Part shown: positions 13,436-28,856 of the stretch, in pieces | Numbering within the stretch: position 1 is the stretch's first letter | Layout of the letters: each line of letters begins with the position of its first letter | From: an uncultured Gemmiger sp. | GTDB taxonomy: Bacteria; Bacillota; Clostridia; Oscillospirales; Ruminococcaceae | Direction: 5' to 3' | Length of the DNA stretch: 33,368 nucleotides | Assembly: GCA_947629015.1 (NCBI GenBank) | Contig: CANRCB010000022.1 | Coordinates: 1-33,368 of the forward strand | Made by a program: the position numbers and the translations under genes | The notes under the pieces: generated by a model | The model's database searches: none | What the model was told of the DNA's origin: nothing | Seen by the model: only the letters and a program-made list of their open reading frames with translations

Positions 13436-13473
13436 GCGCCGGTGCGCGCCGTGAAACCGGCGCGCACCGGCGC
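13436..13473. other. perfect 16-bp intercistronic hairpin
   Basis: GCGCCGGTGCGCGCCG at 13436-13451 pairs perfectly with 13458-13473 across a six-base loop, between the uxaA stop and the epimerase ribosome site. There is no T-tract in the direction of transcription, so it looks like an mRNA-stability or processing element, not a terminator. Confidence 0.7.
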
Positions 13474-14990: not shown

Positions 14991-15120
14991 ATAAAAGTGT
15001 GGAGAGTGGAAAGTGGAGAGTGGAGAGTGGAGAGTGGAAAGTGGAGTGAAGATGTGCCGCTGCGCGGCATGGGGCAAAAATATTTTCCCTTTACTCTCCA
15101 CTTTCCAAATTCCACTTTGG
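14991..15120. repeat. purine-rich palindromic element, copy A
   Basis: Six copies of the heptamer GTGGARA (R = A or G) plus a partial seventh run from 14999 to 15047. A short hairpin follows (TGCCGC at 15055-15060 with GCGGCA at 15064-15069), then a pyrimidine-rich arm at 15091-15118 (ACTCTCCACTTTCC core) complementary to the heptamers. The whole can fold back as a long stem. It lies in the uxaB-uxaA intercistronic gap and ends just before the uxaA ribosome site. A related copy lies at 23311-23426. Confidence 0.85.
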
Positions 15121-18419: not shown

Positions 18420-18454
18420 GCCCGCCCCGGCGCACAAACATTTCCCGGTAAACC

Positions 18455-18487
18455 GGCCCCGCCCGGCGCTATGCGCCGGGCGGGGCC
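18455..18487. other. 15-bp perfect GC hairpin after uxaC
   Basis: GGCCCCGCCCGGCGC (18455-18469) pairs with 18473-18487 across a TAT loop. It is in terminator position 36 bp after uxaC but lacks a T-tract. It may stabilise the 3' end or act as an imperfect terminator. Confidence 0.6.
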
Positions 18488-18552
18488 GCGGCATACAAAA
18501 GGCGCTTTGCCCGGCACACGGCACAAAATTTGGCGGGGCGGGCGCTTCAGGG

Positions 18553-21222: not shown

Positions 21223-21255
21223 GCGCCCGGCGGGGCATACCCGCCGGGCGCTTTT
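21223..21255 (+). terminator. rho-independent terminator of the cstA operon
   Basis: GCGCCCGGCGGG (21223-21234) pairs perfectly with 21240-21251 across a GCATA loop and is followed by TTTT. This is the best canonical terminator in the window. Confidence 0.9.
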
Positions 21256-21513
21256 CAGCGTGTCGAGAAACTCGACACGCTGCAAAAGAGGGGTTCGGCT
21301 TAGCTGGCTGCGCCAGTCCGCCTGCACCCCTCTCACAGGACACACCTCGTCGCAGAAAAGCGCTGTTGCAGCGGCAAGCGGGACGCGGCGGGGTCAAGAC
21401 CCCGCCCTACAAACAGATGCTACGTTTCGTGCGATTTGCGGGCCGATTGTAATCGGCCCCTACGGGGTGGATGATGCGTTTTCCGTACCCTTGTAGGGGG
21501 CGGCCTGCGCCGT
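21256..21513. repeat. cluster of palindromic dispersed repeats, no gene
   Basis: No coding region is seen. The block holds a perfect hairpin GCGTGTCGAG/CTCGACACGC with an AAA loop (about 21257-21279). It also holds a 25-bp palindromic unit (GCGGGGTCAAGACCCCGC core) at 21388-21412, identical to one at 33122-33146, and a 31-bp unit (GGGCCGATTGTAATCGGCCC core) at 21440-21470, identical to 33196-33226. It lies between the 3' ends of cstA and the FkbH-like gene, which converge. Confidence 0.8.
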
Positions 21514-25998: not shown

Positions 25999-27192
25999 AT
26001 GAATTTTGTGTTTGTGAGCCCGCATTTCCCCAAAACGTACTGGAATTTCTGCGAGCGCCTGGTGCGCAACGGCGTCAATGTGCTGGGCATCGGCGACGCG
26101 GACTACAACAGCATCCCGGAGGAGCTGAAAGCCTGCCTGACGGAGTATTACCGCGTGGGCAGCCTGGCCGACTATGACGCGATGGTGCGCGCCATGGGGT
26201 ATTTTACCTTTAAATACGGCAAGATCGACTGGGTGGAATCCAACAACGAATATTGGCTGGAGATGGACGCCCAGCTGCGCACCGATTTCAACGTCACCAC
26301 CGGCGCGCAGAACGATTTCATCAGCCGCATCAAGTTCAAAAGCCGCATGAAGGAGAGTTACATCAAGGCCGGCGTGCCGGTGGCGCGCCACCATATGGTC
26401 TCGACGCTCGCGGCGGCGGAGGCATTCATCAAGGATGTCGGCTACCCGGTCATCGTCAAGCCGGACAACGGCTGCGGCGCCGAGGCCACCTACAAGCTGA
26501 AAAACGCCGCCGACCTCAAGGCGTTTTATGCTGACCTGCCGCAGGAAAGCTACATCATGGAGGAATTCATCGACGGCACCATCGTCAGCTTTGACGGCGT
26601 GGCCGACAGCCATTGCGTGCCGCTGTTTTACACGAGCAACTACTTCCCCACCCCCATCATGGACATCGTGAATTCAAACGGCGACCTTGCCTACTGGACG
26701 CAGAAGGAGGTGCCGGAGGCGCTGCGCAAGGCGGGTTTTGCCACCATCAAGGCGTTCGGCGCCAAGAGCCGGTTCTTCCACTGTGAGTTTTTCCAGCTGA
26801 ACAAGGGCAAAAAGGGCCTTGGCAAAAAAGGCGACTATGTGGCGCTGGAGGTCAATATGCGCCCGGCCGGCGGCTACACGCCGGACATGATCAACTTTGC
26901 CAACAGTGTGGACTGTTACCAGATCTGGGCCGACATGGTCTGCTTTGACGCGGTGCGCAACGTGAGCCTTGCGGGCGACAAGCATTTTTGCGTGTACGCC
27001 GGCCGGCGGGACGGCAAGGTGTACCGCCACAGCCATGAGGAGATTTTGGAAAAGTACGGCGCCGTGATGAAAATGTGTGACCGCATCCCCGACGCGCTGG
27101 TGATGGACATGGGCAACCAGATGTACATGGCCACCGTGGACACGGCCGAGGAGCGGGAAGCCTTCATCCGGTTCGTGCACGAGCTGGCTTAA
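25999..27192 (+). CDS. ATP-grasp ligase of unknown substrate
   Basis: A 397-residue cytoplasmic ATP-grasp protein. The N-terminal MNFVFVSPHFPKTYWNFCERLVRNGVN-type Rossmann start is followed by the ATP-binding KPDNGCGAEATYKL (154-167), the adenine-region MEEFIDGTIVSFDG (187-200) and the metal/phosphate motif LEVNMRPAGGYTPDMINF (283-300, Glu284 and Asn286). These are carbamoyl-phosphate-synthase-like ATP-grasp features, so it should join a carboxylate to an amine or similar nucleophile through an acyl phosphate. The actual substrates are unknown. The ATG at 25999 has only a modest GGGAG site. It ends just before a large inverted repeat that separates it from convergent genes. Confidence 0.88.
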   Translation: MNFVFVSPHFPKTYWNFCERLVRNGVNVLGIGDADYNSIPEELKACLTEYYRVGSLADYDAMVRAMGYFTFKYGKIDWVESNNEYWLEMDAQLRTDFNVTTGAQNDFISRIKFKSRMKESYIKAGVPVARHHMVSTLAAAEAFIKDVGYPVIVKPDNGCGAEATYKLKNAADLKAFYADLPQESYIMEEFIDGTIVSFDGVADSHCVPLFYTSNYFPTPIMDIVNSNGDLAYWTQKEVPEALRKAGFATIKAFGAKSRFFHCEFFQLNKGKKGLGKKGDYVALEVNMRPAGGYTPDMINFANSVDCYQIWADMVCFDAVRNVSLAGDKHFCVYAGRRDGKVYRHSHEEILEKYGAVMKMCDRIPDALVMDMGNQMYMATVDTAEEREAFIRFVHELA

Positions 27193-27267
27193 ACCCCCGG
27201 CAGGCGGCGTGCCTGACGCGCCGCAAACCCGAAGCCACCTCCCCTTGGGCGGCAAACGTCCGCTGCG

Positions 27268-27393
27268 GGCCGGGGGTATGGCGCATGAACTTTATAACAG
27301 AAAGACAGTTGTGTCCGTCCGGGCGCACGCCGTCAGGTGTGCGGCAGGCGGATACAACTGTCTTTCGTCAAGTTTAAAGCCATACCCCCGGCC
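27268..27393. repeat. 126-bp interrupted inverted repeat between convergent genes
   Basis: The outer arms are 15-bp perfect: GGCCGGGGGTATGGC (27268-27282) with 27379-27393. The inner arms pair over 18 bp with one G-T: 27300-27317 (GAAAGACAGTTGT...) with 27349-27366. A small apical stem pairs CGCAC (27324-27328) with GTGCG (27339-27343). The spacers between outer and inner arms partly pair as well (AACTT with AAGTT). The whole gap (27193-27454) has no gene. There is no T-tract after the hairpin in either direction and no obvious target-site duplication, so neither a simple terminator nor a clear transposable element is proven. Confidence 0.85.
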
Positions 27394-27454
27394 GGCGGCC
27401 ATCCACTGGCGCTTTAGAGGGGGTGGCCCGCCCTTTGCGGCGCGGCGGGCGCCG

Positions 27455-28360
27455 TCACCGTTGGCGCCGGCTGCGCCAGAGGACGGCGGCCAGCTGGCAG
27501 GCACACCACAGCAGCAGGGCGGTGAGCAGGATAAGGCTGAGATCCCGCCCAAGATTGTAACTCACCGTTTTGGTGCCCTTGATGAGCAGATGCCCCGCCA
27601 GGTAGCACGCCGGCAGCCGGAACAGCGCGCCCAGCACCGGCCCCGCCGGCTTTTTGCGCAGCAGTGCCCACGCGGCGCCCAGCACTGCGGCGAGGGCCGC
27701 GGCCGCCAACAGGTAATAGCCAAGCGTCAGGCGCGGCAGCGTGATGAGGCCGCCGCCCCCCGGTATCCCGGGGCCGTTGAGCAGGACGTCTTCGGTGCCG
27801 TCGCCCGGGCAGTAGTAGACCGAGCTGTCCGCCGTATGGCCGGCGGGCAGAAAGCCCAGGCTGTGCTCCGTGTTGGGCGCGGCAAAGCGGCGCTCCAGCG
27901 GCGTCGTCCAGCAGCTGATCACCAGCACGCTTGCCGCGCCGTCCGGCTCCGCCGCCATCACCCGGCAGACGCTGTGCTTGGCCAGCGCCCCCACGGCCAC
28001 GACCTGCGCGCCGGCTTCCGTTTGCCGTATTTCGATGCCGGCCTGCTCCGGTGAAAGGTATTGCGGCGCGCTCAGGTAGCCGAACGCGCTGCACAGCACG
28101 GCGGCCACGAGCAGCGCGGCCAGCAGCGCGGCCTTCAGCCGCGTTTGCAGCATCCGGCGGCGTAAGGCCGCCAGCGGCGCGCGCTCGGCCAGCGCGGCGG
28201 GCAGCGCAGGCCCCGCGTCCAGCCCGGCCAGGCGGCTGCGGCAGTTTTCGCAGGTTTTCAGATGCGCCTCCACAAACGCGCGGGTGTCGGGCCGGGTCAG
28301 GCCGTCTTTGTACAACGGCAGCAGATCCTCCACGATGCCGCATTCAAGGTTCGTTTCCAT
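27455..28360 (-). CDS. zinc-type anti-sigma factor, membrane
   Basis: A 301-residue protein. The N-terminus (METNLECGIVEDLLPLYKDG) and HLKTCENC with His33, Cys37 and Cys40 form an anti-sigma zinc-binding (zf-HC2/ZAS) motif in the cytoplasm. A membrane segment follows near 75-95 (AALLAALLVAAVLCSAFGYL), then an extracytoplasmic domain, and three more hydrophobic segments towards the C-terminus. It should hold the ECF sigma factor inactive until a cell-envelope signal is sensed. Its ATG at 28360 lies 17 bases inside the end of the sigma gene with GGAGG upstream, a typical coupled sigma/anti-sigma arrangement. The signal is unknown; the multi-pass C-terminus is larger than in minimal anti-sigma factors. 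Confidence 0.85.
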   Translation of the reverse strand: METNLECGIVEDLLPLYKDGLTRPDTRAFVEAHLKTCENCRSRLAGLDAGPALPAALAERAPLAALRRRMLQTRLKAALLAALLVAAVLCSAFGYLSAPQYLSPEQAGIEIRQTEAGAQVVAVGALAKHSVCRVMAAEPDGAASVLVISCWTTPLERRFAAPNTEHSLGFLPAGHTADSSVYYCPGDGTEDVLLNGPGIPGGGGLITLPRLTLGYYLLAAAALAAVLGAAWALLRKKPAGPVLGALFRLPACYLAGHLLIKGTKTVSYNLGRDLSLILLTALLLWCACQLAAVLWRSRRQR

Positions 28361-28856
28361 CTTGTTGTGCCTCCATTTCTTCACGCAGTTTTTGCCGGGC
28401 CCTGTGCCAGGTGACGCAGGCCCAGTTGGCCGTTTTGCCGAACACCGCCCCGATCTGGGCAAAGCTCAGCTCCCCATACGCCCGCAGCAGGAACACCTCC
28501 TTGCCGGGCTCCGGCAGGGCGTGGACAAGGCGGTGCAGGCGCAGCGCCTCGCTGTCGGCCTGCGCCACGGCGGCGGGGCCGGGCGCGGGGTCGGGCGGCA
28601 GGGCGTTTTCCGGCAGCGTTTCGAGCGGCTGCAGGCGGCGGGCCTTGCGCAGATGGTCAAGGTAGAGGTTTTTGGCGATGCGGAACAGCCAGCCCCGGGC
28701 CGAGCCCTGTTCGCGGTAGGCGGGCAGGCTTTGCATGGCGCGGAAAAAGGTCTCGCTGGTCAATTCCTCGGCCAGGTGCCCGTCGCCGGACAGGCGCTTG
28801 AGGTAGCTGTAGACATCGCTGAAATAGGCGCGGTACAGCTGCTCCAGTTCCGTCAT
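28344..28856 (-). CDS. ECF-family RNA polymerase sigma factor
   Basis: A 170-residue sigma-70-like factor of the extracytoplasmic function group. Region 2 runs from LYRAYFSDVYSYLKRL to WLFRIAKNLYLDHLRK (about residues 6-77), with the usual AEELTSETFFRAM. Region 4 is ALPEPGKEVFLLRAYGELSFAQIGAVFGKTANWACVTWHRARQKL-like with its helix-turn-helix; the linker between is alanine/proline rich. The ATG at 28856 has GGAAGGGGG upstream; the longer frame to 29099 runs through a terminator and is rejected. It overlaps its anti-sigma gene. A possible self-recognised promoter lies at 28911-28939. Confidence 0.9.
   Translation of the reverse strand: MTELEQLYRAYFSDVYSYLKRLSGDGHLAEELTSETFFRAMQSLPAYREQGSARGWLFRIAKNLYLDHLRKARRLQPLETLPENALPPDPAPGPAAVAQADSEALRLHRLVHALPEPGKEVFLLRAYGELSFAQIGAVFGKTANWACVTWHRARQKLREEMEAQQDGNEP

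Follow-up and report, generated by a model that had tools for sequence, protein, structure and literature searches.

A dispersed palindromic repeat at gene ends in a narrow lineage of Gemmiger

A long hairpin between two convergent genes of an uncultured Gemmiger sp. belongs to a family of palindromic repeats of about 146-154 bp that is dispersed in a narrow lineage of this genus. The copies fall into subfamilies, keep a common fold and stand at gene ends, and at the locus analysed here the element is better conserved than its surroundings. We consider it probable that the family is a mobile repeat whose copies at gene ends form a 3' hairpin in transcripts. The original prediction from this DNA, which proposed selection on RNA structure with a mobile repeat among its alternatives, is partly supported as a whole: the search for dispersed copies and that for covarying arms both gave positive results.

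The window element and its family

The window, the whole stretch of 33,368 nucleotides analysed, carries the element in a gap of 262 bp (27193-27454) between an ATP-grasp gene on the plus strand (25999..27192, PF02655) and a zf-HC2 anti-sigma-like gene on the minus strand (27455..28462, PF13490), the ORFs and their Pfam families confirming the predicted convergent setting. Read on the plus strand, the sequence contains outer arms of 15 bp at 27268-27282 (GGCCGGGGGTATGGC) and 27379-27393 (GCCATACCCCCGGCC) that pair perfectly and are paired in the fold, inner arms of 18 bp with one G-T at 27300-27317 and 27349-27366, and an apical hairpin at 27324..27343 (CGCACGCC, a loop and GGTGTGCG), as had been described. 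The inner arms show compensatory changes between copies, and the majority of the pairs that are invariant across the three subfamilies lie in the apical region. Between outer and inner arms lie two asymmetric internal segments, GCATGAACTTTATAACA at 27283..27299 and the opposite GTCAAGTTTAAA at 27367..27378, both mostly conserved within subfamily A in the 13-copy alignment. The full element, a subfamily A copy, spans about 27258-27405 on the plus strand according to its matches to the covariance models R1 and R2 (139.7 and 130.7 bits), wider than the 126 bp first assigned to it; at 126-148 bp it occupies part of the gap rather than filling it.

The predicted RNA fold of the element has an energy of -105.8 kcal/mol compared to -52.4 +/- 3.8 for shuffled sequences, none of 200 being as good (plus-strand z = -13.9), and the minus strand folds with z = -10.2. 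The G+C content of this copy is 61%. The element has no T-tract, and a terminator scan of the gap gave no site outside it, in agreement with the proposal that it is not an ordinary terminator; inside the element, the scan gave one weak minus-strand site of six pairs at 27320-27303. Rfam returned no match at gathering score and six matches up to E 10, the best being MIR1144 (E 0.0003, 35.4 bits, gathering score 90). These microRNA matches are below threshold and were taken as artefacts of a long hairpin.

The hairpin had been described as standing alone. A search of the genome and its relatives with covariance models, R1 built on the 13-copy alignment A1 and R2 on the 21-copy alignment A2, instead gave 21 copies, each 146-154 nt long, which occupy 19 independent places: three in the window genome (G000), five in G029 and 13 in G030, that is, in 3 of the 35 genomes of the genus. 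BLASTN with the 126 bp found two more places in the window genome, and further ones in two of its relatives. The two element-bearing relatives are the uncultured Gemmiger MAGs Lapin-030__bin95 and Lapin-028__bin58, whose ATP-grasp genes, compared over all 693 bases, are with 92 and 87% the nearest to that of the window genome; the next full-length matches reach 82%, and G020 has a partial match of 87% over 357 bases. Among the other 32 genomes, R1 and R2 gave no convincing copy with 89-90 first-look candidates scored per genome, a sampling that might miss a copy. Four R2 matches in other genomes (E 0.08-0.46) were treated as chance and left out, as was a 27-base blastn match in G005 (E 1.4e-4), a genome with no model match.

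Beyond the genus sample, a search of 296 further genomes of the family with stricter filters and 10 candidates per genome gave no match; few of these genomes belong to the genus itself. Phages and plasmids gave no match either, nor did IMG/VR with two patterns. A pattern scan of GTDB contigs, with a pattern that fits part of the copies and a set from which the window genome's own records were possibly excluded, gave seven matches on six stretches, all from the two MAGs named above. The accessible part of the open PMC literature yielded no description of the repeat family.

The copies form three subfamilies: A with 13 copies, B with seven, all in G030, and C with one (G029_C85). Subfamily A has the layout GGCCGCC..GG-GGGTATGGCGCATGAACTTTATAACAG, a variable inner stem, the apical hairpin, and CGTCAAGTTTAAAGCCATACCCCCGACC..AGGCGGCC. 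Ends of the GGCCGCC/GGCGGCC type occur in many copies, and several subfamily A copies, including that of the window, have worn outermost ends. Subfamilies B and C have their outer G-run, rod shape and apical region in common with A, and differ in the middle.

Covariation of the arms

Pairing is kept in 93.7% of the 903 cells of alignment A2, a figure favoured by the derivation of the structure from that same alignment. Both sides have changed in 24 of the 43 pairs and 129 cells (16.7 pairs and 43.1 cells in shuffles), and covariation reaches 0.412 compared to 0.165 for shuffled and at most 0.109 for slid alignments, the strong signal between copies that the original prediction had looked for in a structured RNA. 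On the copy tree there are 37 to 51 double changes from one pair to another, the range depending on the cost used, together with 23 to 26 single-sided pair-to-pair changes. The double changes include 12 to 22 of transversion type, which cannot pass through G-U. Judged from these alignments, the element retains its hairpin as its sequence diverges.

Counted at predominantly Watson-Crick pairs, the excess of G-U over A-C cells (28 vs 18) is not significant (p = 0.18), hence pairing in RNA and pairing in DNA are not told apart. The G-T in the inner arm, once read as a sign of selection on RNA, carries little weight alongside this near parity, and the orthologue has G-C at its place.

Similar double changes could come from DNA repair, in which template switching within a palindrome copies one arm onto the other with no selection. 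The number of double events, transversion-type ones among them, and the lack of a significant G-U preference fit such copying, but we regard it as an unlikely source of the covariation. Ten of the 43 pairs are invariant in all 21 copies; the asymmetric internal segments are conserved in subfamily A, whereas arm copying would tend to erase them; and the single-sided changes on the tree are also present. Moreover, the whole 148-nt window element differs from its orthologue at 19 sites, and the changes that fall in A2 pairs are all single-sided, two keeping and two breaking the pair, with no double change.

Dispersal, gene ends and terminators

Copies at unrelated loci are 91-95% identical, for example G030_C44b and G030_C31, or G029_C53 and G030_C44b. 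The neighbours are AraC/FBPase for G030_C44b, PNPOx/FtsX for G030_C31 and AraC/GH1 for G029_C53, the two AraC proteins sharing 32% identity over 183 residues. In addition, species interleave on the copy tree, and the two observations together indicate that the element has moved. At an alpha-amylase gene end, an orthologous place, the copies G000:C29:7019-7166 and G029:C143:2773-2919 belong to different subgroups and lie in opposite orientation, which points to separate insertions or replacement.

The suggestion of a mobile repeat of the MITE type is thus upheld in its dispersal, whereas the target duplication expected with it is absent: the longest word shared by the two flanks averages 3.2 nt vs 3.4 nt in mismatched controls, and 0 of 21 copies reach 6 nt. 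No clean empty site was obtained at the places examined, because synteny is broken there and the downstream genes often differ. The genes around the copies were called with a home-made codon model, and no transposase was found among the neighbour proteins, 40 of 44 having been scanned with Pfam and 39 having a family; L056:1063-1668 has none, which leaves the second neighbour of G029_C85 unsure. Y1 transposase matches occur in 19 of the 35 genomes, the three with the element and 16 of the 32 others, and no contig bearing the element carries one. A RAYT/Y1 partner was rejected because this distribution does not follow the element. The absent target duplication, empty site and transposase count against our reading.

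Two further ideas on insertion were dropped. Attachment sites of the attC type in integrons were set aside by our own reasoning, the copies being dispersed singles. The flanks of the window copy outdo all 200 shuffles in pairing, which suggested insertion inside older terminator hairpins, an idea that fails over the 21 copies (mean -32.4 vs -32.0).

Other repeats were seen in the same genomes. A search for the end pattern, which an autonomous partner transposon would share, in the three genomes with up to three mismatches gave 65 matches vs 44 for a reversed control, in MAGs that are fragmented; the known copies and one chimeric copy were recognised among them. The search yielded one additional element, G030:C32:5502-5659 (L119 603-760), in which the family ends enclose a different multi-hairpin repeat. 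A second dispersed repeat consists of nested GC hairpins, TTTGCGC..GCGCAAA around two hairpins (loci L119, L138, L142, L145, L148, L132 and L133). It stands at nine places in G030, including G030:C32:5502-5659; a shorter part occurs at 14 places in G029 and two in G000, some of all these places being at contig ends, weak partial matches exist in six other genomes of the genus, and L138 and L142 have no Rfam match at gathering score. A perfect short hairpin, CAGCGTGTCGA..TCGACACGCTG, lies at 21252-21286 of the window and is found again in each of the three genomes, at loci such as L058, L132, L140, L142, L143 and L146, five of which adjoin the second repeat; its 11-mer occurs twice in the window vs 0.01 expected. 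The window also contains perfect 16-bp GC hairpins at 13436-13473 and 18454-18488, their arms separated by 6 and 3 nt, and, in a gap between called genes at 14999-15118, short tandem repeats of AGTGGA/GAGAGT type with an inverted partner at 15093-15118.

All 21 copies stand close to a gene 3' end, the nearest lying -3 to 61 nt from the covariance-model edge. Twelve are in convergent, nine in tandem and none in divergent settings; in a baseline of 64 neighbouring pairs from six stretches, some of them element-bearing, the counts are 9, 44 and 11. If each of the two orthologous pairs of places is taken as a single one, convergent settings make up 10 of 19 (p = 8e-5, or 0.009 when tested on the baseline's upper 95% bound) and divergent ones 0 of 19 (p = 0.028). 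Within the nine tandem settings, the element is oriented with transcription in four and against it in five. Several subfamily B copies are found within what look like operons (parA-parB, GH88-SDR and mannitol dehydrogenase-altronate dehydratase).

A comparison of G000 with G029 at the window locus shows differences at 7 of the 126 sites of the core, and no gaps. The fourfold sites of the ATP-grasp gene differ at 24 of 157 (p = 0.012 vs core), and the flank, which extends to 27480 and thereby 26 bases into the zf-HC2 gene, differs at 28 of 134 and has 31 gap columns in addition (p = 0.00025 vs core). This comparison suggests purifying selection on the core, at one locus and with seven differences.

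A rival reading is a purely selfish MITE that has no function once inserted, with gene ends as no more than harmless landing sites and a hairpin maintained solely for its use, as DNA, by active source copies. Its near-identical copies are dispersed, their orientation to transcription is mixed, G-U and A-C cells stand near parity as DNA-level pairing would give, and 0 of 21 divergent settings is what purging of promoter insertions would leave. Such a reading nevertheless seems unlikely to us, since the core evolves more slowly than fourfold sites and flanks at the single orthologous place measured, the convergent excess exceeds what promoter avoidance explains, and neither a target duplication nor a partner transposase was found.

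Relatives differ at the gene ends concerned. A strict scan, for which one locus per set was too short, looked within 250 nt of the stop codon for a hairpin with a T-run. Downstream of the ATP-grasp gene it found one at 19 of 27 usable loci that lack the element and at 0 of 2 that carry it; downstream of the spo0A-like gene the counts are 14 of 18 and 0 of 1. The window locus lacks an ordinary T-tract terminator, and most element-free relatives have one after the same gene; we count this in favour of a role at transcript ends. By reading, ordinary-looking T-tract hairpins stand alongside G030_C44b and G030_C31, which counts against that role, and the orthologues in G000 and G029 of the gene beside G030_C44a are followed by simple GC hairpins, 18 and 14 bp long, with no T-run.

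A bolder possibility, which we think improbable, is that the hairpin transposes as an RNA module for 3' ends: bidirectional and U-less, it would replace the T-tract terminators of core genes (spo0A-like, ATP-grasp and others), its arms co-evolving under selection for pairing. If so, a mobile element would rewire transcript ends genome-wide. The least probable reading is a dedicated bidirectional terminator or small-RNA gene particular to the window locus, as the convergent setting, the strong fold and the gap with no other T-tract terminator might suggest, for the family occupies 18 further independent places, apparent operons among them, and lies in either orientation to transcription, at least six T in seven within 15 nt occur at 0 of 42 element ends (five at 4 of 42), and no Rfam family matches at gathering score.

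We propose that the repeat is a small non-coding element presumably spread by an enzyme acting in trans. A copy would land, or be retained, shortly downstream of stop codons, where a long 3' hairpin may form in transcripts arriving from both sides and may protect or end the 3' ends of neighbouring mRNAs. The copies in apparent operons count against this reading, as full termination there would be harmful; they point to partial termination or mRNA stabilisation. The family is limited to one lineage within a genus of gut Clostridia, and comprises three subfamilies that show numerous compensatory changes. Its roughly 20 natural insertions are suited to test whether repeats of this kind define the 3' ends of mRNAs, and also whether arm covariation stems from selection or from DNA template switching.

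Comparison with known repeats

The Gemmiger hairpin resembles an intrinsic terminator in its position downstream of stop codons, but differs in its length of 146-154 nt and in its lack of a T-tract. It resembles MITEs in its 21 short, non-coding, dispersed copies with inverted ends at 19 independent places, but has no target-site duplication. REP and BIME sequences are extragenic palindromes at gene 3' ends, a placement that the Gemmiger palindromes share with those accompanied by RAYT. REPs are described in the accessible part of PMC3733652 as elements of 20-40 bp tagged GTAG or CGTC, much shorter than the Gemmiger element, whose distribution moreover does not match that of the Y1 transposase.

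Small palindromic repeats are best known in enterobacteria, Neisseria and pneumococcus, as the available excerpts of PMC2229807 state. According to the same excerpts and those of PMC10969869, ERIC (RU-1) is an intergenic element of 127 bp that stands at 3' ends in enterobacteria and can alter upstream mRNA stability in Yersinia; it has TA ends and target duplications (PMC2229807). The Gemmiger family is similar in size, intergenic and likewise placed at gene 3' ends, but lacks consistent TA ends and duplication, and has a window copy of 61% G+C and GGCCGCC/GGCGGCC-type ends in many copies. In the portion of PMC2229807 at hand, YPAL (RU-2) of Yersinia is about 168 bp long, not A+T-rich, devoid of TA ends and mainly intergenic, with targets across or beside dyad symmetry, target duplications of 3-26 bp and a possible effect on upstream transcripts; its RNAz score is 1.00 with a stem-loop structure (excerpt of PMC2267715). 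The Gemmiger element is close to YPAL in its length, in not being A+T-rich and in its lack of consistent TA ends. They differ in host lineage, in target duplication, absent from the Gemmiger family, and in the evidence for mobility, which for YPAL comes from empty and filled sites (PMC2229807, in part) and for the Gemmiger family, with no empty site seen, from its dispersed copies; the likeness is one of description. Altogether, the family is best read as a new one of a known kind of repeat, likened to YPAL and ERIC by their descriptions.
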